Of a stretch of 64,000 bases of DNA, positions 2,526 to 51,200 are shown one piece after another. Origin of the DNA: Undaria pinnatifida (Eukaryota > Sar > Phaeophyceae > Laminariales > Alariaceae). The stretch covers positions 1,746,936 through 1,810,935 of the forward strand of contig JABAKD010000020.1 of NCBI GenBank assembly GCA_012845835.1. Direction: 5' to 3'. The translations under genes and the position numbers were made by a program. The notes under the pieces were generated by a model. It made no database searches. It was not told the DNA's origin and was given only the letters and a program-made list of their open reading frames with translations. Within the stretch, counting starts at the first letter, position 1. Each line of letters begins with the position of its first letter.

Positions 2526-2814
2526 TAAGAAAGCAGTACGCAAACAAGGGGTGAGCTGTTAAATGCTCCCCGCTGAGCTCGAAGCAAAGGCGTTCGGAAC
2601 CGCTTAAGAAGTATGTATAACTAGACCAGGACGGCGCCACACCATAACCGTGCGGGAAAATGGAAAATGGACAAAAGCTCCATCTCTTACAACAGCTTCC
2701 GCAGATCAACACATCGCGTAAAGTAACAGTAGTAGAATTCAAAGGTGTGCGCGGTACAGTACGTACCGAGGCGTACCGGTGGTATATACCGCCGGTATTA
2801 CCGGTACCGAACAC

Positions 2815-3240
2815 TTCGGTAAGTTCGGTACGGCATCAATACCGGTACCAGAAACTTCGGTAAGTTCGGTACGACATCAATACCGGTACCGGAAACACGG
2901 TAAGTTCGGTACGACATCGATACCGGTACCGGCGGTGCCGGTACAGACTTTCGTACCGGTACCGGACATTTCGGTAAGTTCGGTACGTTATCAATACCGG
3001 TACCGGAAACTTCGGTAAGTTCGGTACGACATCATTACCGGTACCGGACACTTCGGTAAGTTCGGTACGACATCAATACGAGTACCGGTACCGGACACTT
3101 CGGTAAGTTCGGCACATCAATAACGGTACCGGCGGTACCGGTATGCACGTATGTACCGGAGCCGGTACCGGTATCGGTACAACATTGACACTGGTACCGG
3201 ACACTTCGGTAAGATCGGCACAACATCAACCCGGTACCGG
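2815..3240 (+). repeat. Left subterminal array of hAT-1
   Basis: About eight degenerate copies of a roughly 42-bp unit. Each unit has the form CTTCGGTAAGTTCGGTACG, then ACATCAATA, then CCGGTACCGG. The perfect palindrome CCGGTACCGG recurs throughout. In hAT elements short repeats near the ends are usually transposase binding sites; that role is inferred here. Confidence 0.8.
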
Positions 3241-3393
3241 ACACCTCGGTACGTTTGGCACGACATCACCCGATTCCACCACATTGTGACGTCGTTCCTT
3301 GGAGCTTTGACTCCAGGCAGCACTCCAAGCCACACACACCCCGGTCCCCAAGAATCTTCCAGCACGCTCGGTATACCGAGACTCTGAGCACGC

Positions 3394-4009: not shown

Positions 4010-4400
4010 TTTTTCTGTACCGGTACCGGACCCTTCGGTAAGTTGGGTACGACATCGATACCGGTATCGAAAACTTTGGTGAGTTCCGTACGATATCAAT
4101 ACCGACACCGGACATTTCGGTAAGTTCGGTACGATATCAATACCGACACCGGAAACTTCGGTAAGTTGGGTACGGCATCAATACCGGTACCGGAAACTTC
4201 GGTAAGTTCGGTACGACATCAATACCGGTACCGGCGGTACCGGTGCATAATTTACCGGTGCCGGATACTTCGTTAAGTTCGGTACACCTCCAATACCGGT
4301 ATCGGACACGTCGGTCAGTCCGGTACGACGTCAATACCGGTACCGGACACGTCGGTAAGTTCGGTACGACATCTATACCGGTACCGACCCGGTACCGTAC
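4010..4400 (+). repeat. Right subterminal array of hAT-1
   Basis: About eight more copies of the same 42-bp unit, in the same orientation as the left array instead of mirrored. Units are more diverged than on the left (variants GTTGGGTAC, TTCCGTAC, TCCGGTAC). Confidence 0.8.
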
Positions 4401-8869: not shown

Positions 8870-10100
8870 GGGTCTCCTGCCAGAGTAGTTTTCGCATGGG
8901 AAACGGCCATAATGGGTACACCCCCGGGTTTTTCGGTCATTTGGGGGTATAGGGAAAGCACTCCTGCGGAAGGTGCCCGCGCTTGCCCCAAACTGCCTAA
9001 AACTCAATAATGACGCGCTGGTAAGGCACCCACAGCCCATGCCGAGCACGCAAATCGTTTTTTCTTCTTTTTTCGGGCAAAGTATTGGGGCTCACGGGGC
9101 CGCAACGTAGGAGGGGGCTAAACCATCTCTCCTTTTGACTTAAACTTGGGGGGGTATGCCCCCACCAATCTATCGAATTTATGTACTATCCCCCCTTCAC
9201 CACATTTTCCCCCTTCTGCGTCGCGGCCCTCGTTGCTAATGGCAATGCAATGGTTGAACAAAAAAGTTTCCAAACTTTATTTTTACATTTTTGAGCACTG
9301 TTTCCTCTCCGCGCTATCCTCGCCTACCGTACGGGTAGCAAGGCGGGTTCCAACTGCAGGTAGCGCTGCAACAGCTGGGCTCCGTCAGTTGTCGTAAGAG
9401 ATTGCCATAACGTCGCTGTGGGGAAACAACGATACTTCCATTTTTCTGGCTCTTTATTTGTCAAGCGGCCCAATTTGTCAAATTTCATCAAGCTGCGGTC
9501 AGCGTCGTTCAAAAACCACAATTTCCCCCCGGTCTCGAGACAGAGATAACGCACCACCAGGCCTCTTCGCTCCGGACAAGGACACATGAATGTACGTGAC
9601 AGCGCCGAAGAGTGCATGTTTACCCATGCTCTAGGGCGCGAGAGGTTGCCCGCGTTGTCGTGTGGTCTTCCGTCCAATCCGCTTAAACTTCATTTTTTCG
9701 TCCGGTGGGAGACGATCGAGATTCTTGTCTCTGTCTCCCACACACCATCCGCCAAATGTGCTGTTAACAGCAGCCTGGTTGGCACTCGCCACACATCACC
9801 TGCGGTAGTGCGGCACCGTACACCAAAAGATGGGTCGGAGCCCCTAACGAGCTCGCCACGTGCAGATTCACGACGCTGTCCTTGAATTCGTCGAACGAAG
9901 TGCGTGAAGGACACGAAATCTCGCCGCTTCAATTTCAAGATCTGCTTGATAATTTCTCAAATAGATGTTGCCCATAATCACCGCCACCATATTTACTTTT
10001 GAAAATTGCAAAGTTGAAAGAAAAACTAAACAATCGGGCCCATAAACAATCGTTCAGGAAAAGTTCGGCTTCCATGATATCTTCGAAAATTAAACTTGAC
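8870..10100 (-). repeat. Left arm of a long inverted duplication
   Basis: The reverse complement of this arm aligns along its length with 10174-11160, including the blocks around 9010-9080, 9470-9720, 9780-9930 and 9990-10090. The arms are clearly diverged, and the left one has about 200-250 extra bases near 9100-9350. Read outward from the centre on the minus strand, the arm contains protein-like but broken frames, for example a segment with LWARLFSFSFNFAIF beginning near 10078. I do not recognise the family. Confidence 0.7.
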
Positions 10101-10173
10101 AAAAACATCGGCTTGCGATTAGCAACGGTCTTGGGCCGGTGCTAATGGAAAGCCAAAAGTTGGAAAAAAAAAA

Positions 10174-11160
10174 AAATGAAGTTTCCATTTTCGCAGATCC
10201 CAGCCAAACTTTGCCTGGACGGTCGCCTATGGGCCCAATTTTGTAGAATTGCTTTTTGGAACTTTCCAGTTTTCCGGAAAAAAAGGATTTCTCGCGGCGA
10301 TCTCGGCCAACATCGGCTTGAGAATTTCTCAAGCAGATCTTGGATGAGACGCGGTGTGATTTCGCGTGCTCGACACAGTTCGTTCGACGAAATCAACGAC
10401 AGCGTCGTGAAATCTGAACGTGGCGAACTCGTCCGGGGTTCCGACCCTCTCTTGGTGTACAGTGCTCACTCTTCGGTCGTGATGTGTGGCGGGCGCCGGC
10501 CAGGCTTCTGTTAAAAACACATTTGGCGGCTGGTGCGTAGAAAACTGAGACAAGAACTCTCTATCGTCTCTCAACGGGCAAAAAACAGAAATTTGAGCGG
10601 ATTGGACGAAAGACCACAGGACAAGCAAATCCCTTACGCCCTAGGCACGGATCAAGATGAACTCTTCAACGCTGGCTCCTACACTCATGTGACTTTGTCC
10701 GGAACGAGGAGTGATCGTGGTTTTTTAATGTCGAGATCGAAGGTCAATCGTGTTTGGTGGACAATGATGATCGAAGCTTGATGAAAAGTTGACAAATTGA
10801 CCAGTTGGCCGCATGACCAACAAGAGCCAGAAAAATACCAGGTAATTTCAATCGTTTTTTCCTCATAGCGACGATGCTTGTTATCTTTCAGCAAACAATT
10901 CCAAAAGCAAGTTTGGAAACTTTTGGGTCAAAGTACGAATCGGCTTTCCATCAGCACCAGCCTTGTTAGCCCCAATACCGTGCCCGAAAAACAAAAAAAA
11001 CGGTGTGCGTATTCGGCATGGGCTGCGGGTGTCTTGCCAGCGCGTCAGAAATGGATTTAGGCAGTTCGGGGTGAGCGCGGGCACGTTCCGCGGGCGTGTT
11101 TTCCGTATTCACCCAAACGCCCGAAAAAAACGCGGGTACACTCTTTCGACCTCTTCCCTT
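10174..11160 (+). repeat. Right arm of a long inverted duplication
   Basis: This is the plus-strand counterpart of 8870-10100, separated from it by only about 73 bp. A frame starts at ATG 10176 and runs 112 codons (LWAQFCRIAFWNFPVF, later SFDEINDSVVK). Further outward the similarity to the left arm continues through stops and frame changes, so both copies look like head-to-head pseudogenes. The combined arrangement could fold into a hairpin of about 1 kb. Confidence 0.7.
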
Positions 11161-21639: not shown

Positions 21640-22011
21640 TTCGAGCTGGGTGGGAGGAATTCTACCTGAAAGGCGTTATTGAAGATGTCAACCTCAGGGA
21701 GAGCGCTGCTCTTCAATCCCCTCCCCGCGGAATCGACATGTGCCACCGTTGCTGATTTGGAATTTTCAATATGACAGTTACTTATCAGTTTCGTGCCGCT
21801 TCGGGCTATTGAACTATTATTCGGTACCTAGTAGTACCTGGCTGGCGTTCTTGGTGGTAGCACTGCTGTAAGCTCTCGCTTAGGAGCTTACTCTTCTCGG
21901 AGGTCTCACGCATAAGTTCTCTTCTCGACTTGCCTCTACCCTGTGGGTGGAAGACGTAATACAATGACTTGAAACCTACCCCGCTTGGAGCTAACGAAAA
22001 CTCTAGAGCCG
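21640..22011. repeat. Direct repeat, empty copy
   Basis: About 370 bp similar to 23405-23586 joined to 25606-25790. It contains the uninterrupted target sequence CGGTACCTAGTAG near 21824, exactly where the other copy carries the 2-kb chromodomain element. The pair probably are terminal repeats of an older retroelement whose interior is 22012-23404. Confidence 0.75.
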
Positions 22012-23404: not shown

Positions 23405-23586
23405 TGTTGTTGTAGGTGGGAGGATGGAAGAGGTTTTCGCTCATGAGGATGAGTTTTCTCTTGCCATTTTTGGTGTTTTAGGTGACGGAATTGAGTCCAT
23501 CGGGAGGTTGTTGATTTTGATCTTTCAGTATGATAGTTACTTCTCAGTTTCGTGCCGCTTCGGGCTATTGGGTTATTATTGGGTAC
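23405..23586. repeat. Direct repeat, occupied copy, left part
   Basis: Matches 21640-21826. It ends at GTAC, where the chromodomain element is inserted; the match resumes at about 25606. Confidence 0.7.
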
Positions 23587-23855
23587 TGTTAAGATACGGC
23601 CTCGAAAGGCCTGTAGATATCCGAATTTGAGATCATTTGGATGGGTTTCGTATGATAAGGTTGGCGGTTTATATTCGGGGAAGTTAGGAATTAGATCGGA
23701 GGCACGCGCCTCCGATCTCAGAAGCTATCCCGGGCTCTGGTGGAAACGAATAAAGCTACATCTCTACGAAGGAACGAAAGTGAGTACTCTCCGAAGACCT
23801 GCTCAATTGGCAGACCTGCAGGGGGCACTCTGTGTCCCCCACCTTTAATTTAACA
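23587..23855 (+). repeat. 5' LTR of the chromodomain element
   Basis: 269 bp; contains an internal perfect hairpin (GATCGGAGGC and GCCTCCGATC around 23694-23717). Confidence 0.9.
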
Positions 23856-24458
23856 AGTGGCGTCGTCGAGCTTGATGTGCTATTGTGGCAGCGTTCTTCC
23901 GGTTTCTCCGATTTTTTTTTCGTAGCGACGGTACGGGGGCGAGGTGGCGTCATCGCGGTGCTATACAAGACGCATTGGGCGGGACTCTCCGAACCGTCCT
24001 GGGAGCGGGAAATGGACCTTCACCTCTCCCGCTCCAACATCTTGCGTTATTGGGCCGGAACCCCGGACCAGCACCGCCAAACCAACCGCCTTTACCGCCG
24101 AATGCGGATCGGGGCGGCACAGCGTGAGCTCTCCCGCAACAACGGGGAACGTTTCCTAGCGCCGGGCTACGCCTGTGTTCCCCGCGCCGATTGGCTCCGT
24201 CGCTACCACGACACAGTACTCCCTAAGGGAGCCCACTTTTGGTACAAGGGAGACGATGGTTTATGGTGGCTAGGAAAAATCAGCGCGAGCACTACCGAGG
24301 ACAAGGTATATCTGGTCCGCTTTCTGGACGACCCGGGACCGATTAAACTCCCTCTTCCCCCGGCGCGCTACACGACTTCAACGGGAGCCGTACGAGGCTC
24401 TTGGTGCTTGCAAGTTCACATCGCCAGTGCGTTTCCTCGGGGATCCAACGTAACGTAG
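23856..24458 (+). CDS. Chromodomain-containing C-terminal Pol fragment
   Basis: The frame is open from inside the left LTR to a stop at 24456-24458, about 200 codons after the LTR. The first in-frame ATG is at 24013. Residues about 30-70 (VLYKTHWAGLSEPSWERE, then ILRYWAG) match the chromodomain pattern of an aromatic strand, W-x-GL, and W-E followed by a helix. In chromovirus integrases such a domain is thought to tether integration to modified histones. A second block (GAHFWYKGDDGLWWLGKI, then YLVRFLDDPGP) looks like a small Tudor/SH3-type barrel. There are no internal stops, unusual for a fragment. Whether it is translated without an early ATG is unclear. Confidence 0.65.
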   Translation, partial: SGVVELDVLLWQRSSGFSDFFFVATVRGRGGVIAVLYKTHWAGLSEPSWEREMDLHLSRSNILRYWAGTPDQHRQTNRLYRRMRIGAAQRELSRNNGERFLAPGYACVPRADWLRRYHDTVLPKGAHFWYKGDDGLWWLGKISASTTEDKVYLVRFLDDPGPIKLPLPPARYTTSTGAVRGSWCLQVHIASAFPRGSNVT

Positions 24459-25340
24459 ACGAATCTCGAGGCGCGGCCGTGGCCAGTTGACTTCCAAGCC
24501 ACCACCGCTTCTCGATAGTTCTTCATTTTTTTGAGGTATGAGTCTTGCGTCTTTGTCTTTGGGTCGTTCGTAGTGTCCTGAGGGTCTTTGTCGAGTTTTG
24601 GGGCGGTTCTTTCCATTTTTTTTTCTGTCCTGCCGACCCCCCTGCTCAGTGCCGGGTCAGGGTTCGGGTAAAACGCCACTATCTGAGGCGCAGGGCTGTC
24701 GCCTTTTTGTCATTGTTCAATTTCGCCCTGCCGACGCCCTCCTCAGCCCAGAGCCGGGGGGCGACCAGTGTACGGGTCTGTGTGTCATCTTTTATGTTTT
24801 GTGTGTTGTATTTGTTCTGAATTTTTTTTGTCTAAACACTTCCTCCCCTAGCGGGGCTGTAGGTGTTGACACCTTCCATCCCGGGTATTCGTCGTTTCCT
24901 CGTCTAACCCCCCGCCTTGCCGATGGCCCGCGGGAGGTTTTTCGCATGACTTCTCCCTTGTGTTAGCGCCTGTGTTCCCCTCCATATCGACGAGGGCTCG
25001 CCTCGCCATAGTACCTTTTCTGTGATTGGTTTACCGTAGAGCCTTTCCTGCCCCCCCCGCCACACCCGCGGCATGCGGCAGGTTCTAGAGCCTTTTCTGC
25101 CCCCCCCGCCACACCGGCGGCATGCGGCAGGCTTTTGATGGGTGACTACTGCCTTGCTGTAGGGTCTGCTTTTCTTTCTACTGCTTTTCTTCGCGTGTTC
25201 CTGGCTCCATAGCCAGACGGTTAGAGGTGTGGGAGTGGGGTTTGAGGAGCCGCATCTTCGACTCATGGTCTAGTTCGTAGAACCGGAGTTTCCCCGAATC
25301 TCCCATATTTCTGCATATGCGACTCATCAGGGTGGGCTAG
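24459..25340. other. Non-coding interior of the chromodomain element
   Basis: No conserved frame. A tandem pair of about 54 bp at 25047-25135 contains a C8 run and the palindromic GCATGC flanked by GCC/GGC, able to form small hairpins. Confidence 0.5.
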
Positions 25341-25609
25341 TGTTAAGATACGGCCTCGAAAGGCCTGTAGGTATCCGAATTTGAGATCATTTGGATGGGT
25401 TTCGTATGATAAGGTTGGCGGTTTATATTCGGGGAAGTTAGGAATTAGATCGGAGGCACGCGCCTCCGATCTCAGAAGCTATCCCGGGCTCTGGTGGAAA
25501 CGAATAAAGCTACATCTCTACGAAGGAACGAAAGTGAGTACTCTCCGAAGACCTGCTCAATTGGCAGACCTGCAGGGGGCACTCTGTGTCCCCCACCTTT
25601 AATTTAACA
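25341..25609 (+). repeat. 3' LTR of the chromodomain element
   Basis: 269 bp, 268 identical to the 5' LTR. Confidence 0.9.
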
Positions 25610-25790
25610 GTACCTAGTAGTACCTGGCTGGTGTTCTTGGTGGTAAACTGCTGTGAGCTCTCGCTTAGGAGCTCACTCTTCTTGGAGGTCTTACGCATGA
25701 GTTCTCTTCTCGACTTGCCTCTACGCTGTGGTTGGGAGACGTAATACAATGACTTGAAACCCACCCCGCTTGGAGCTAACGAACGACCGT
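25606..25790. repeat. Direct repeat, occupied copy, right part
   Basis: Matches 21823-22011, completing the copy interrupted by the chromodomain element. Confidence 0.75.
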
Positions 25791-25859: not shown

Positions 25860-27290
25860 AAAGTTGAGGGTGTCGCAAAATCCAGGTATTCCACGTGGGA
25901 GTACAACAGGTGAACTGTAGCTTAGGTAGCTCAACGTGCAAGGCATCATTTGGCGTGGGGTCCAATGGGGAGCGAAACGATCTGAACGTCGACATGTCCA
26001 CAAAACCCTGGTGTTCGAGTGTCGGGGTATCTCAGGTAACCCAACAAAAAGGGAACCACCTGCTGCGGGGTCTAAATTGGAAACGAAACCGCCTGAAACA
26101 AGGGGTGTTCGCAAAATCGGGGTGTTCGGGGGGTGGTGAGGGGTTGGGTAGCTCAACGCACAGGTCACTGGTACCATCTGACGTGGGGTTCAAATGGGCA
26201 ATGGAATGATGAAATGACTCTAAATTGGGATTGTGCGCGAAGTCCAGGTGTTCGGGGGGAGGGGAGGGGGCATTCGTCGTATCGTGCATGGCCGTAGTCC
26301 TTAAGATCATAGACCCTCGCGTTCTTACCACACCGGGACAGAGCAAGTCGGATCTTCACTGACCAGAGACATGCAACTTTTCGTTCACCAAACGCGAAGC
26401 GACGTGAGGTGTTCGTCGAGTCGCATGAAGGGTGAACTGATCCTACTGTGAACCGTTTTGTGAATTGAACTTCTGCACCTTATGCGAGGTTCTTGCATAT
26501 GTAGATCGCGTTCTTACCACACCGGGACAGAGCAAGTCGGATCTTCACTGACCAGAGACATGCAAATTTTCGTTCACCAAACGCGAAGCGACGTGAGGTG
26601 TTCGTCGAGTCGCATGAAGGGTGAACTGATCCTACTTAGAACCGTTTTGTGAGTCGAACTTCTGCACCTTATGCGAGGTTCTTGCATATGTAGACTATAT
26701 GGCAGCGCCGAGCATGATTTCATCCATTTTCCGGTCGTGGCTAATTCCAGACAGAGCACCAGGGCACCAAGCAACTGCCTGCGTGGTTTCTAACCAGTTA
26801 CACACTACGTGAATACCATGGTTCCCCTTGTGCGGAGATAAATTCTCCACCCTGCCCAATATGACCCAACTCGACCCCTCATGTCGTTCACCGCCACAAC
26901 AAAATCAGTGAAAACTAAAATGCCTTGCCCTGGTTGTCTAGCTCGCGTAACGAGCGTTGTGTTTCACCGCGTCGTTGCCAACCGACGCCAACCCCAGCAG
27001 CGCAGCAGCAATAGCAGCCGCGCGCGGGGGGTGGCGGGGTCAAGAGTCTCAACGCGAAGAGCACCATTCGGCGTGGGGTCCATACGAGAAACGATACGAA
27101 TCTGAATTAGAGGTGTCCACAAAATCCGGGTGGATGAGTGTGGGGGTATCTTCTGGCAGTGGGCCAATGCACAGGGCACAATCTGGCGTGGGGTTCAAAT
27201 GGGAAACGAAACGACTTATAATAATAAACGAGGGGTGTTGTAAAATTCCCGGGTGGGGGATATCACTTAAACTCAAGGCATAGGGAATCC
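25860..27290. repeat. Degenerate satellite-like array
   Basis: Related blocks recur near 25940, 26065, 26190, 27070 and 27185. Each carries GGCGTGGGGT, then AAATGGGAAACGAAACGA, and in most cases GGTGTTCGCAAAATC. Copies are 100-130 bp and poorly conserved. The array is interrupted by the 189-bp tandem pair. Confidence 0.6.
26317..26694. repeat. 189-bp tandem duplication
   Basis: Two adjacent units (26317-26505 and 26506-26694) differ at only a few bases. A more diverged relative lies at about 16615-16740. Confidence 0.85.
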
Positions 27291-33500: not shown

Positions 33501-36500
33501 GAACGGGGCATAGCGGTCGGAAATGCGCCACCTGTATAGGTGAGGCGACTACAGAAATGTACCACCAGTATTTTTGCGCAGAGCACTGTCGCTTCTGCTG
33601 TGCCGCGGCCTCGCATGCATCACTGAACCCGGGGAAAAACGTTATTTAAAGATGGCCGCATCGCCAACACTCGTATTATTGTTTTAAGCCGGAACACGCC
33701 AGCGGGTTTCGCGTGTTTAATTCCAAGCCGGCTCAGGTTAGGCAGGCGAATCCATTGTAATTACAGTTGATTGATATTTTTTATCTTCTTCGTTTTCTGT
33801 CTTACCTTTCTGGCCTAGAGCGACCTGTAAATCTGGGATTATAGTATTTCGTCTCGGCCTCGGACCGGGATCCGTTGAACCCCAATCTCGGGGCCGAAAA
33901 CGTCGCTTTCTCGCCCGCTCTCTCCGCGGGTCGAGTTCCCCGACTTCGCCGGGCCTGTTCCCGCGTGCCTTATCTTGAGGCCACGCGCCGCCGTCAAGCG
34001 CCGCGACCCCGAACTGACCTCTTTTGGGCAGATCTTGCGGAAAAGCTCGCTGCTGAGGGAGATATTTGTTCGGACTGTTGTGGGTCCGGGAACGAGCTCG
34101 CGACAAGGAAGCACAAGGAACATTCTGTCTGGATCGTCATAAGATTCGAGATCTGGAGTTAATGGGTCAATTCTTATGGAAGATTTACGGGTGCACTCCC
34201 CGCCGAGGGGGGGGGGACTCCCAAGATTGGTTCTCGAGCGGGTGTAGAAGCGAACGATCCTGTTTCGCTGAGTCTTGACTTAACTGGGGCTGCTGCGATT
34301 CGCTTTGTCCCCGGGTGTGACGTATGATATTTTAAAATATTCGACCGCTCCACTTTGACTGTGCTGTTGCGTTGTGGAGATCTTTGCTGTTGTGCTGTGC
34401 TGCGCTATCATTAGGTTCTCGAGCGGTGTCTCTGCTGCGCGTGTTCGTCCTTCTTAATTATGCCGACATCGAACCTACAATATACCGCAAGGGTACTTGC
34501 TTGACAGTCCCGTTGAATACGAGCGTATGTGTTTATCGTGTAGTATGATACAGTATCTCAAAAGACTGCTGACTGATCAAAGCTACGCTGCCAGCTCGTA
34601 ATACCTACTATGATACTGTAAGCACAATCTGCTGTGCACGTGAGTACTCACTACTACTTCTGTCGTTTACGAGTAGCTACGCTGCGATCTGCCTTTGAGG
34701 CCATCATTCGTGTGCCAGGGGCTACTCGCTATACAGATCTCCGCTTCTACCGACTGTTGTACCACATGAAAATTGTGCTACGACAGCGCAGCAGCTTTGG
34801 AGCACTATCGTTAGATCGGTATTGACTAAGCGCTAAATAAGTACGTGAGCGGAGCTGTCCTGGACTACTCTCTCCGTGTTACCCAGCAGCGACTAGGTGA
34901 TACTCACTACCGCCGTACTACGTGTCGTTTGGGTTGTGCCAGGCTGCGCCGAGTTGGTTAGAGCGAGCCCAGAGTTCTGGACCCTCGCCCGTATTCGCGT
35001 CTCGCTGCATAGATAGCGCGGCACGTGCGAGAACTCGGTATAACTATGCTTGATATTCGAGAGTCGTTATACTGAAGTTAATGTACAACGCACTCTCTCC
35101 CACAGAAGAAACCTAGCCAGTTAGTATTCATGTTTCTTGAGAGCTGTCCTGTACTCTTAAATCGTGCTCGTTCATACGACAGTATCGTACGTAGTGGAAG
35201 CAAGCGTGACTCTGGATTTCTCGAACGGTTTGTGGTCGTCAGGGGACGTCCTGCGTGCATCCCCTCCGGCTCTGGGTAACATGCACCTCCCTTTCTTATT
35301 TTACTCAGGTCACCAAGCGGTGACCATCTCGGGCTCGGGCACTCGAGCGGTGTTCACCCTGAGCCGCGTGTCCAGTCATCGTCGACCATACGTAAAACAC
35401 GCATCTCCATGAGGTTGTCCATAAAACGAACCAGGTTCGTGAACCGGTGGGTAGTTGTTTTCTTGTGTTGGCACAACAATGTTCATAATAATCAAGTAAA
35501 TGATCTTACCCCTGCCCAAAAAATGTAGGCACTCGCGAGATTTGAATACACGACACAGAGGTCATCAACGCGCCCACTCTGTATCTTCAACACGCAAGCT
35601 CTAAACCAACATTCACAAACACCCAAACCAGCCAATTGATAGCACATACAGCAGAGTATCGGCCCTCTCTCAAGGAACCTGAAATCCGGCTCTAGGCTAG
35701 CATCCTTTTTCTGGCGGAGCAAGAAGGGAGTAGGTTTCGTACAAGTTCCTGCAGAAGGCAAGTGCCTAGGCTACATCCTTGAAATTATTTTTGTAACTTC
35801 CTTTCAAGTCTACTTTCTATGAGCGGGCCGATACTACTGTAGCTTCACGGGGGCCTTACCCCCCCCCAACAAAAAAAAGTCGACCGCCTTCCCACGTTGC
35901 CATCAACGTTCCTACAAATAGTTTTTATCTCATCGTTAGGTTTGAAGTGGGTAAAAAAACCATTGACACCGTAACCACAGCAAACGACGCTCCCGGAGAA
36001 AACAATATCAGGTCGAGACAAATACTGGGGGAAGAGGGTGAAAAAGGGATAACACCATAACCACTTTGAACTACGCTCCTGCCGAAGAACTAATAGGTCA
36101 TCGTACATACACATACTGACCCCCAGTATGTATCTCGACCTGTTCGTGTTTTCTCCAGGAGCGTCGTTCGAAGTGTTTACGGTGTTTAGCGTGTTTTTGC
36201 CCACTTCAAGTCGAACAATAAGATGAAAATGCTGTCGACGCACATTAGTGACAACCGTGGGTCGAGGGCCGGCTTGTGTTTGGGGGGGGTAAGGCCCCCG
36301 TGAAGCTACAGCAGTATCGGCCCGCCCACAAAAAATAGACTTTGAGGAAGAAAAAGAGGTACTGCGAGTACTGTCAAGAGTTTGAGCATTGATTGATCAG
36401 GTACCATGGTATATACTGCTGAGGCGTCCTCCGATCGGGATAGCACTTTCTGGCTAAAGTATTCCAACCGACGGCGTTCCGTGGTCTGGCTTGACGAATC

Positions 36501-45258: not shown

Positions 45259-48200
45259 ATGAGGATGCGCGGAGCGCTCCTGTTGGCCATGGTAGTTCAA
45301 TCGCGAGCCTTCGTGGTTGCTCCTTCTGCTCGAGTTCGTCTCGGAACATCCCATCCGCGAGCAAGCACCTCTGCAACAGCGATGGCGTACGACGTCAAAT
45401 ACTCACCAAACAGATGGAGAGATGACGCAGATGATATCGAGCCTGGCTTCGGAGGCATCTGGCCCGGTGATCCCGACGCCAAAACCCACAAGGCGAGAGA
45501 TCCAACCGCTGCGCTTTCCCTTCAAGTGTTCATGTTTGACATGCTGTTTACCTGTTCATGATGTGTTAGCCGGTACCAGGTACGTACATGATACACTCTG
45601 GTTACATGTCGCCACCAAGCACCAAACCACAGCCGATGTATCACAAATTACTGCAGGGGCGGTAGGTTGTGGTGCATGCAAGCCGCAGCGTGTGCCAACG
45701 GGAGTCAAAGCTAGGGCTGGGATGGAACAAGCGCGCAGTCTTTGTCGTGACAATGGCTACGGCTTTGTCCAGCGTCACGAAAATGGTTCAGCATTGTGTG
45801 TTGTCTTCACTTTGATTGAACCGTTATTTCTACCCAACGACACCATCCATCAGTACATCAGTACACCCAGCGTTCGTGCCGATTCTTGATCCTAGAGGGA
45901 GATACAAATTCTGTGGTCACCCGCTGTGAGACAGAGTAAAGCAAACAGTCGCAATTTATCGAGGTAAAGAAAGTAAAATGCTAGCGTACCGGGCACAAGA
46001 ACACAAACAACCAAACAAGCTAGACCACACCATAAAAACAAGAAAAATGAATATTTTCGTGAAGCCGCAGCGTGTGCCAAAGGGAGTCAAAGCTACGGCT
46101 GTAGTCTAATGGAACAAGCGCGCAGCCAATGTCGTGACAATGGCTTCTCGGCTTTGTCCAGCGTCACAAAAATGGTTCAGCGTTGTGTGTGTGTTGTCTT
46201 CACTTTGATTGAACCGTTCTTTCTACCCAACGACACCATCCATCAGAACATCAGTACACCCAGCGTTCGTGCCGATTCTTGATCCTAGAGGGAGATACAA
46301 ATTCTGTGGTCACACACTCACACACCACTGCTGTGAGACAGCAGTAGTGAGGCAAACAGCAGTCGCAATTTTTCCCCATCCGCCGGAGGATGAAAAGACA
46401 AAAAAAAAAAAAAGTCGCAATCTATCAAGGTAAAGAAAGTAAAATGCTTCGTAGCGTAGCTGGGCACAACACAAACAACCAAACAAGTTAGACCTACTCG
46501 TACTACTATGGAAATTTTTTGAGCGATTATTTCATTATTTCTGGCGATTATTTTTGTACCAGGTACTAGTTTTGAGGCTCCAGAAATAAGGGGCGTCCAT
46601 TATAGCGTCTGATTTTCGGAAAGTGGTTTTATGTTGAATTGGTCGGTCTTGTTTTGCCGTTTGCCTTTTTTTTTGAAAATCTGGCACGTACACTGTCGCC
46701 CGCGACGTTAGGTCACCACCGCCTGTGCTGCTGTCTGCTGCCGTGCTGCTGCTGTGCTGCTGCTGTGGTGCTGCTGTGGTGGTTTTCATGGTGGTGGTGG
46801 TGCTGCTGTCACGTTTGTGTGAGGACGAAGCTCTGTCTCACACACGACAAGCGCGGTGTGCTGTCGTATGTGTCACAGTGATTCTTTGTTGTGGGTGATG
46901 GGTGACGTGTACAGCAGACAGGTATCGTACCAGGTACAGAATAGGCAGTGGTGACATGTGATACTTGGTACGAGGTAGCAAGAGTATCCAAAAGTCAAAT
47001 AATCCCAGTTCTGAGAGGTTGGAAGAGCTGTTATTCTGGGCTCAGAAATCACCAGATCCGCTGATTTCTGGCCTCGAATATTTCTGAACCCAGAAATAAC
47101 GATAATTTCTGGTCCCATAGTGGATGGTTTTTATTTTTGGCGTCGGAGATCCCTGTAATAATCGCTGAAAATATTTCCCATAATAGTTGACTTACACCTT
47201 ATTTTTTTGTCTTGTATACAATATGGATAATTGTGTAAGGCTGACTCTTACAGGAGACGAAACCGGAAAACAGAACTGGCATGCACTTCTGTTTTTTGTT
47301 TGGCCCAGATTCTTATATCGCGTTTCGTCTTTTGCAATTTTTCAATTCTTGTAAAATATTATTACGAGCACGGTGTCTCGTGCATGCCGGGGTTTCGTTT
47401 GCGTTGGGAGGGCGTGAGGGAGGGAGTAAGGGGTGCGGAACCTCGTCCGAATTGAGTTAGCTTCTCATGTTCCTTCGACGTACGTATGCATGATGCTCCA
47501 ATTTATCAAGGTAAAGCAATTGAAATTCTAGCGTACCGGGTACGAGTACACAACCAAACTAGCCAGACCATAGAAATTTGAAAATTACGTTAGGGCCCAG
47601 ATTTAGGGCCCAGATTAACGAAGACCACGGAAAATCGCAATTCGATTTCTTTTTTGTTAATTGATGAAAAATACACGAAAAATTCAACTCTGGTTCTTAT
47701 CAAGGAACGGCGTAGTGCGTTCTAGAATTTAAAAAACGCAAAACGGTCGACGAACACCCGTGGGCAACGACCGAGGCCCTGGAGCGCCGCGACCAGCGGT
47801 AGATTGGGTTTGCCGGCAGCGGCTAGGAGGCTATGGCCCTAGGCGTCTCTTGGATGGGCCGGTGCCACCCCGCTGCCCGACATGGGCAGCAGCGACGGGG
47901 ATATAGCAGTCGAAGGCGAAGTCGTGATGTGACAGTTGGTCGTGTAACTTTCGAGGTGCAGGGCGACGAAAAACTGGGTTTGCGGCGGTCTCGACTGTTT
48001 TCGAGGCGTCGCAGGCGGCCTAGGCTGTGCCAAGGGCCTTTGGAGGCCGCGCTGCGCTGCTCCGGTGGTCCTACCCCTCGCAATGGTGGCTTCTCGCCCT
48101 TCAATCAGCCGACGAAATGGCACCAATTCGCGTGGCCGGCTTCGGTTACATAGAACATGCCATGCCTAGGTGCACAAACTCCCCAAATTGAATTATTTTC

Positions 48201-51200
48201 GACTAAATTCGACCACATATATTTTTTTTTCAACTTTTTTATTGAATTTGATTTTGCGTAGTAATGCTGAGAATGCCGACTTGGTGATTCATTTTTTGAC
48301 CAATCAGATGCAAATTACATTAAGTTAAAAGAAATAAAAATCGAATTCATATTTGGCAAGTTCCTCGTTAATTCGGGCCCTTAACGAAGAGCACGGAAAA
48401 TCGTAATTAGTTTTCTTTTTTGTTTTTACGTTCATGAAAAATACGCGAAAAATTAAACTCTGCTTCTTATCAAGGAACGGCGTAGTGCGTTTTAGAATTT
48501 AAAAAACGCAAAACGGTCGACGAACATCCGTGGGCAACGACCGAGGCGAGCGTTGGCTCGCGTCCTGCCCGGAGCGCCGCGGCTAGCGGTAGATTGGGTT
48601 TGCCGGCAGCGGCTAGGAGGCTATGGCTCTAGGCGTCTCTTGGATGGGCTGGTGCCACCCCACTGCCCGACATGGGCAGCAGCGATTGGGATATAGCGGT
48701 CGAAGTTCTGAGCGAAGTCGTGATGTGGTAGTTGGTCGTGTTACTTTCGAGGTGCAGGGCGACGAAAAACTGGGTTTGCGGCGGTTTCGACTGTTTTCGA
48801 GGCGTCGCAGGCGGTCTACGTTGTGCTAAGGACCTTTGGAGGCCGCGCTGCGGCTGCTCCGGTGGTCCTACCTCTCGCAATGGTGGCTTCTCGCCCTTCA
48901 AACAGCCGACGACATGGCACCAATTCGCGTGGCCGGCTTCGGTTACATAGAACATGCCATGCCTAGGTGCACAAACTCCCCAAATTGAATTATTTTCGAC
49001 TGCATTCTACTAAATAAGTATTTTTTTTACTTCCTTGTTGAATTTGATTTTTCGTAATATTCTGAAAATGCCTCCTCGGTGATTCATATTTTTACCAATC
49101 TGATGCAAACTTAATTCACTTCTAAAAAAGAACATCGAATTTCAATTTGGCAAGTTCCTCGCTAATTCGGGCCCTTATGATATTTTGAACATTGATATTT
49201 TATATAAATTGGTTCAGGATTATCGATCATTGTGTGAGGCTGACTCTTATGGGAGACGAAACCGGAAAACAGAATTGGTATGATATGCACTTCTGTTTTT
49301 CGTTTGGCCCAGGTTCGCATATCGATTTTCGTTTTGCAATCTTATGGTGTTTCGTGCTTCGTGCATGCCAGGGTTTCGTTTTACTTTCACTTGCGAGGAC
49401 GTTGGAGGGAGGGAGTAAGGGATACCTCCGAAAGGAATTGGCTCCCCATGTTCCTTAGACGTATGTATGATCCTCAGGCTTGTCAATCTGCTGGAGCATC
49501 AAGGCAAGGACCAACCGCAGGCACTGCAATGTAGTAGCCCGTGCGCTGGTTAGAGCGGCGCGTGCGCTTGTGCTTGTGTCCGTTTTCGGCTCCCTTATCC
49601 CCTGCGTCTTCGCGTGTCGCTTTGTGTGGCACACACAAGCAAGCAGCAGCAAGCAGCTGTTGGCGTTGCAGAGAGCTCAAGCACACAACGACAGCAGCAG
49701 CCAAGAGCATGCGGTGTAGCCGATGGCTCGCCATCACCGGAGTCTTGAATCCCCAGCTACCGCTATATGCCGCAATGCCGTGTCCGACACTGGAGAGTAG
49801 ATACCGAGAGAGTATGATATGATGTACGGGTGGTGTGGCCCGGCGCGTTATGCCTCCCGTGTTGGGCGCAAAACCTCAGTTTCGTTCGGGTTTTGGAACC
49901 GTACAGAACTGGTGCCTGGTTTCGTCTGGCCAGGGCGTTTCCGTTCGAAGTACCTCGTACAGATTTTTTTTTCGAGATTTCTGTTTTTGTTTAATCGACA
50001 TGAGTCGATTAATCGGAAATGGCAAAACATTCCTCCTCGATCTCTCTACAAACCGTGTTCTGTTTTCCGGTTTCGTCTCCCATAAGAGTCAGCCGAAGCT
50101 TGAAACGTAGATAATCTGAATGAATATACCTTTGGAAGGCATCTTTGATCAGGGTATACATACAGGCGTCCCCTGTGGAGTAGTAGGTGAATTTCGCGAA
50201 TCTCGTCTCACCACAGTCAAATGTGAGTTCAAATCCTTCCGAGAGCATACTCGTGCGTTGTAGGGACTTCGTCTTGCGTAAGAATCCAGGGCCTTCCCCG
50301 GGGTTTTTCCCGCGGGATTGTACGTGGTTCGTGCAAAATGCGAAATCCCGTATACCGTGTCCCGTGGTCCCGTGATAAATGCAAAACCCCGTATTCCGTA
50401 TGACGTGTCCCGTGATAAATGGGAAATCCCGTATCCCGTATCCGGTGGTCCCGTGCAAAAAGCAGAATCCCGTTCCCGCACAAACGCGACCCGCGCAAAT
50501 ACTCAAAAGCCCGGTCCCGCATAAACAAATCCCGCGACAAAGTTAAAATCCCGCATTCCGTAAATAAAAGAACGAGGAATCCCGACGTTTGTCCAGCTCG
50601 CTCTCCCGCGAAGGACAGACTAATGCGATATACACGGAATTGCCAAGTCACCGGTTCAATTGTCAGGTCAAAAGCTTTTTTTTTCCGTTTTTTTTTCGAA
50701 CCATTTACGTCCAATCCTGGTGTGAGTCCCCCTCGCGCCCTAACATAACGCCGCGAAAACACCAAAGAAACCCTCTTTTGTGTTTCAAGTTTAAAGGGCT
50801 GAGAGAGGTCCGAGCGCGGAGCAGACGGCATACACCCGGCCCTGACCGACATAGCATGAACACTAACGAGGCTGTTGCTAGCGAGGTAGCAGCGCCTGCT
50901 GCCAGCGAGGCATCAGCGCCTGCTGCGGGCCAAGAGTCCGTTGGTGTCGGGCTTGCAGGACCTGATGGTCTTCCTGTGGCCAAACCTGCCGGCTCGGCTG
51001 CTGCAGGAGTACAGGTTGGCACACTACCAAGCTCCAAGACGTTGCGCTCGTCAAAATCCTGTCGACTCCCGTCGTGGCCGCATCCCGCACGGGGAGTCCC
51101 GCCGTGGCCGGATCCCGTACAAAAACATCGTTCAGGCCCGTGGTTGCCGGATCCCGTACAAACAGAATATTGCGGTCCCGTGCTTGCCGGATCCCGTAGA

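Follow-up and report, generated by a model that had tools for sequence, protein, structure and literature searches.

The window analysed here, the whole stretch of 64,000 nucleotides, contains a 2,023-bp LTR element that we regard, with a probability of roughly 0.93, as a recently inserted derivative of an abundant Ty3/Gypsy family, shortened by an internal deletion. The element has its ends in common with longer relatives, lacks their interior and carries a target-site duplication of its own. Its chromodomain-only appearance very likely reflects the point at which the deletion ended and not a selected design; the window copy is ordinary, and the parent family is what is unusual. The features on which the argument draws are as follows.

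21748..21998, + strand: paralogous repeat in which the site is empty, GTAC occurring once at 21824-21827 (alignment within the window)
23583..23586, + strand: target-site duplication GTAC, left copy (GTAC outside the LTR; empty-site paralog)
23587..23855, + strand: 5' LTR of 269 nt, TGTTAA...TTAACA (LTR pair comparison)
23832..24458, + strand: open frame of 208 codons, reading through LTR and leader into the tail end of a Gypsy polyprotein, its C-terminus shifted (homology)
23856..23928, + strand: 5' leader kept from the parent family (genome matches at 100%)
23858..23868, + strand: primer-binding-site-like stretch TGGCGTCGTCG, 2 nt past the LTR (TGGCGTCG(A/T)CG is common to 11 compared copies)
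23928..23929, + strand: deletion junction, leader to pol tail (genome searches, copy comparison)
23931..24014, + strand: incomplete chromodomain remnant, first strand missing (homology, model)
24168..24419, + strand: putative Tudor/SH3-like barrel, ORF residues 113-196 (AlphaFold2 model)
24459..25340, + strand: 3' untranslated part (95.5-99% identity in 20 relatives), including a 49-nt tandem duplication at 25037-25131
25329..25340, + strand: polypurine-tract-like AGGGTGGGCTAG, abutting the 3' LTR (comparison with derivatives)
25341..25609, + strand: 3' LTR (LTR pair comparison)
25610..25613, + strand: target-site duplication GTAC, right copy (GTAC outside the LTR)

A young insertion and a paralogous empty site

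The two LTRs, each 269 nt long, differ at one base, and GTAC abuts both on the outer side; the TG...CA termini and the short target duplication are those expected of Ty3/Gypsy elements. The repeat at 21748-21998 is 86% identical to the left flank over 80 nt and 93% identical to the right flank over 175 nt, and when the two flanks are joined without the insert they align to this repeat unbroken at the GTAC site. The single base difference and the empty site near 21.82 kb, both of which an earlier note on this DNA had described, are therefore confirmed. Its claim of a recent insertion also holds, although the divergence of 1/269 (0.37%) has a Poisson 95% interval of about 0.01-2.1%, and the event is young but loosely dated. 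Among the best 40 of 1543 candidates scored in the genome, at least 40 full-length matches to the LTR stand at 99-100% identity, the window's own two among them, and one other place (C27:5920907) scores equal to the window 3' LTR.

A family this repetitive invites the suspicion that the short element is an assembly collapse or misjoin. We find that scarcely credible: the target duplications and the empty-site paralog fit a clean insertion, the window LTRs are not identical to each other, and similar derivatives elsewhere have duplications of their own.

A deletion junction seen once in the host genome

Searching the genome (511,146,479 bases in 68 contigs) with the whole element returned 47 matches when the best 40 of 3544 candidates were scored, and only the window copy covers positions 1-2032. 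Of the 46 others, 35 begin at element position 346-348 and reach the element's end; identity is 89% in one of these and 95-99% in the remaining 34. A 155-nt query spanning the junction found its full match at one of 40 scored places, the window copy itself; at the other 39 only the tail side matches (82 nt at 100%). A multi-copy non-autonomous family would have one deletion form at several places, and here the form was found at 1 of 40. The deletion form of the window apparently is private, although a second copy of the junction is conceivable, only the best 40 places having been scored in each search. The leader by contrast is common property, its 73 nt being 100% identical at 33 of 40 places, the window included (best 40 of 380 first-look candidates).

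In the 20 copies fetched by means of the tail, what stands before it is pol sequence, near-identical over 60 nt in 19 and diverged at its upstream end in L018, and the leader of L013 runs on beyond the point where the window copy jumps to the tail. Two database proteins, P0121 and P0157, have the leader peptide in common with the window and then diverge, and ORF residues 1-42 used as a protein query gave one match among three candidates, without the junction. Seven leader/tail pairs lying on one strand are, by coordinates alone, 11.4-13.8 kb apart, from which we infer that the window deletion is probably about 11-14 kb; the junction itself is seen directly.

A long relative would thus have lost about 11-14 kb between leader position 73 and the last ~175 pol codons, and the LTRs, the primer-binding-site-like stretch, the polypurine tract and the 3' untranslated part would have been retained. 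Autonomous relatives presumably supplied the proteins that copied the RNA of the derivative and integrated it. Mobilisation in trans of this kind is suggested by LTRs that are 99-100% identical, common ends, the 4-bp duplication and siblings that are equally young.

Long relatives encode the missing enzymes

A long relative, L010, has TCTG duplications, LTRs with 0 differences in 269 and a frame that stays open for 2,473 codons. Scanned in three pieces, the frame contains NADAR on the N-terminal side (PF08719, E 4.7e-50), RVT_1, RT_RNaseH, Integrase_H2C2 and rve, and no gag family matches at E 0.01. The order of RT, RNase H and then integrase is that of Ty3/Gypsy elements and is absent from the window copy, in which the sole counterpart (internal nt 73-588) is to residues 643-814 of the third piece. 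The earlier note had stated that all enzymes are gone and that the element is non-autonomous, and both statements agree with these data. It had also proposed to look for an autonomous parent with the same LTR: longer relatives bear a nearly identical LTR, and L010 has RT and integrase domains. A further copy, L011, matches all three L010 pieces in order, with an interrupted frame and TTTG duplications.

In the relatives, the tail lies downstream of integrase within one polyprotein. Some longer protein homologues have an upstream stretch with NWTGPYK, a motif characteristic of the C-terminal end of Gypsy integrase. In L010 and its relatives P0083 and P0098, one polyprotein frame seems to combine NADAR, RT, RNase H and integrase with a chromodomain-like stretch that lacks the full aromatic cage and with a Tudor-like barrel. 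The structure model of A2, one of the longer relatives, proved too poor to use (mean pLDDT 42.9). Proteins containing the LTR frame have varied flanks (130 matches among 131 candidates, from ENA sources), and the 3' untranslated end of the window lies upstream in 5 of the 120 such proteins listed (P0130, P0151, P0184, P0221 and P0225).

A distant relative, L001 (JALZVY010000008.1), is filed as a Phycisphaera MAG and has a Gypsy tail and an integrase-like frame beside bacterial-looking genes. Its tail lies downstream of this frame (rve, E 1.2e-4, below the Pfam cut-off). The contig is probably chimeric or contaminated; the literature searched yielded no mention of the record, and a search of viral contigs found no relatives.

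The open frame contains the end of a polyprotein

The 208-codon frame includes the C-terminal part of a polyprotein of the Ty3/Gypsy type. Of 871 candidate proteins, 737 are homologous at an E-value of 0.01 or less; the 120 listed and used below were chosen by similarity to the window protein. The frame opens with GTG inside the 5' LTR. Its in-frame ATGs, at 24012 and 24102, both lie downstream of the chromodomain remnant, and a 16-codon frame begins at 23875, ahead of the first. The description of the coding part as open for about 200 codons is accurate in extent, but the start is a GTG in the LTR and the length is unremarkable, as a stop-to-stop run of 200 codons also arises in 44 of 500 sequences obtained by dinucleotide shuffling of the internal region. 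We rejected frame length as evidence of coding for this reason, and the reality of the frame rests on homology.

The chromodomain and barrel motifs said to be kept fare differently from each other. Homology to the polyprotein begins at VRGRGG, past the first chromodomain strand, and the window protein has no match to Pfam Chromo and a sub-threshold one to Pfam Agenet (E 0.026); Pfam Chromo is matched by 4 of 40 relatives. Counting, among the 120 listed homologues, the matches that reach each column, cage position 1 is aromatic in 1 of 41 (leucine in 37), position 2 is tryptophan in 67 of 74, and position 3 is aromatic in 3 of 74, each time phenylalanine (leucine in 63). As judged from these columns, the chromodomain-like stretch does not have the three cage aromatics of a methyl-lysine reader. 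The barrel, by contrast, is supported by the AlphaFold2 model of the window protein, in which pLDDT block means are 77-91 over residues 101-200 and residues 1-65 fall below 50. The C-terminus is shifted out of frame, unlike that of the 20 other copies compared.

The tail protein differs from the family majority in 3 of 170 columns, a closeness that leans towards the window because the 120 listed homologues were picked by likeness to it. At the nucleotide level, the tail differs from the majority of 20 same-genome copies at 3 positions over about 500 nt. Although a tail near the majority could reflect selection, the youth of the copy explains it as well. Between the window and 17 same-genome copies free of stops (165 codons), 1-7 differences are silent and 2-8 fall in changed codons, which is not enough for a judgement; L013, L014 and L018 were omitted from this comparison on account of their stops. 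These three, of the 20 copies examined, have a common stop at tail codon 112, within the barrel. Measured against the distant relative L001, the tail gives dN 0.122 and dS 1.167 (NG86, 130 codons). We rejected this ratio as a sign of selection on the window frame; it reflects selection on longer ancestors.

The earlier note put forward, as inference, that the putative chromatin-targeting module provides targeting in trans; on that reading a chromatin reader would have been kept for its usefulness. In its favour, the frame is open, the tail protein lies close to the family majority and the barrel gives a good model. Even so, we consider it very unlikely. The chromodomain remnant has no ATG before it and lacks its first strand, the C-terminus has been shifted, the junction occurs at one of 40 scored places, integrase, which precedes the tail in the polyprotein of the relatives, is absent from the window copy, and siblings have inserted with a stopped tail (L013) or with none (L033, L035 and L036). 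The window frame, we infer, makes no targeting protein. A barrel-only protein might instead be made from ATG 24012 and interfere with or redirect the integration of autonomous relatives; this is a far-fetched prospect, but if true, a deletion derivative would encode a protein that regulates its own family in trans. We read the tail instead as a passenger, most likely left by the accident of where the deletion ended, and the frame persists because the deletion presumably stopped there and the copy is young.

The copy count proposed in the earlier note gives a divided answer: related elements are many, but the deletion form of the window appears at one of 40 scored places. The outcomes that it regarded as contrary to its reading, a single occurrence without relatives or decayed frames in other copies, are half present, in that the form was seen once amid many relatives and the tail is stopped in 3 of 20 copies.

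Some sibling derivatives dispense with the tail

In seven of the 20 fetched copies, another LTR lies upstream at a distance of no more than 8 kb. The LTR pairs of these seven derivatives are 97.4-100% identical, and matching 4-bp duplications flank all but L022. Their retained pol sequence reaches into RT in L024, L027 and L029 and into integrase in L013 and L015, and is shorter in L022 and L014. L013 has identical LTRs and CAAG duplications together with its stop inside the barrel. In L024 and L027, identity to L010 is only 42-72% over the 5' parts and rises to about 95% from integrase piece residues 57-58, so that both look mosaic; this pattern suggests recombination between Gypsy subfamilies, and some of the longer copies may not be simple deletions.

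Searches with the LTR or the whole element yielded five more derivatives (L033-L037), all with 4-bp duplications. L033 (G000:C30:13954417-13955102) consists of two LTRs with 0 differences in 269 around 148 nt, flanked by GCAC duplications; the first 20 nt of this interior follow the 5' LTR, and the other 128 are the closing stretch of the 3' untranslated part. With only a primer site and a polypurine tract between identical LTRs, this copy is TRIM-like. The other four have LTR pairs that are 98.5-99.6% identical. L035 (GGAG) and L036 (CTAC) begin past the end of the tail frame, whereas L034 (CACG) and L037 (GTAT) keep only its later part. L037 (G000:C32:8300930-8303121) also contains an inverted LTR end with a leader piece (about 156 nt, 99%).

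These copies bear on whether the tail was kept for a cis-acting signal in the RNA (packaging, dimerisation or 3' end formation), with deeper deletions being lost. All seven paired-LTR derivatives among the fetched copies do keep the tail and the 3' part, but the 20 copies were chosen by the tail, which builds the pattern in and makes them uninformative on preferential retention. Since L033, L035 and L036 inserted without the tail, with target duplications and LTR pairs that are 98.5-100% identical, and L033 made do with 20 nt at one end and 128 nt at the other, the tail is not needed in cis, and we judge a cis-acting role unlikely.

Leader, primer site and 3' end

The 11 nt of the primer-binding-site-like stretch are common, save one A/T change, to the window and to a tRNA-Ser copy behind the LTR of L014. 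ARAGORN places this tRNA-Ser(CGA) directly behind the L014 5' LTR, and the complete sequence stands there in antisense (L014:7411-7494, - strand), as if this deletion derivative had taken up a copy of its entire primer tRNA. After the start of the primer site, 13 of 15 compared copies continue with GGCAG, as in the L014 tRNA-Ser (L010, L011, L014, L015, L022, L024, L027, L029, L033, L034, L035, L036 and L037), and their sequences part ways after it, as though the primer site copied from the tRNA had anchored rearrangements. In the window copy and L013 the leader is an alternative one that is frequent in the genome. At the other end, AGGGTGGGCTAG is unchanged in 6 of the 7 derivatives shown, has one substitution in L027 and is present in L033 too.

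Elsewhere in the window

Rfam at gathering scores and ARAGORN returned no match and no tRNA, respectively, in the window, and a Pfam scan of two other window ORFs found nothing. A 1.46-kb imperfect palindrome at 9411-10873 is 72% identical to its own reverse complement, and 35806-36342 behaves alike. The window further contains two arrays of 41-bp units, rich in TACCGGTACCGG, at 2799-3269 and 4018-4386, a 189-bp tandem duplication at 26317-26694 (97%) and a direct repeat of about 0.8 kb at 47603-49177 (87%).

Comparison with known systems

No description of a chromodomain-only LTR derivative turned up in the literature searched, which is no proof of absence. Several partial counterparts are known. 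Non-autonomous LTR elements of wheat that are cross-mobilised, namely RLG_Quinta with RLG_Cereba (PMC11302176) and RLG_Sabrina (PMC9744471), resemble the window element in having the ends and LTRs of autonomous partners and no RT or integrase of their own. They are families, some of which have a GAG, whereas the window junction was found once and the element keeps the opposite, 3' end of pol. TRIMs (PMC4717578, PMC3532108) are similarly short, with LTRs, a primer site and a polypurine tract; unlike these very short elements with no coding part, the window element measures 2,023 bp and has more than 500 nt of pol-derived sequence, including the frame.

The Chronos elements of oomycetes are treated in PMC5348765. 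Among chromodomain elements, ECR-1 is a centromeric Gypsy of Ectocarpus (PMC11541908). Both ECR-1 and the relatives described here have a C-terminal chromodomain behind integrase and 4-bp target duplications, but ECR-1 is reported to have all three cage aromatics (PMC11541908), whereas only the tryptophan column is regularly aromatic here.

A further close counterpart is an Ectocarpus Gypsy lineage, represented by Gypsy-12_Ec32, that has an N-terminal NADAR and a C-terminal chromodomain (PMC12477816). As in that lineage, L010 has NADAR at the N-terminal side of pol, followed by RT, RNase H and integrase, and a chromodomain-like stretch stands at the C-terminal end in both. In the part of that source available, a Tudor domain is reported from a separate lineage, Gypsy-10_Ec32 (PMC12477816); the relatives here, unlike Gypsy-12_Ec32, have a putative Tudor-like barrel after the chromodomain-like stretch, and no enzyme is left in the window copy. 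By domain order, the long relatives fit the Ectocarpus NADAR lineage, which would point to a brown-algal host. The wider family, in which NADAR is combined with chromodomain-like and Tudor-like parts and very young copies stand beside a deletion series within one genome, makes a useful test bed.
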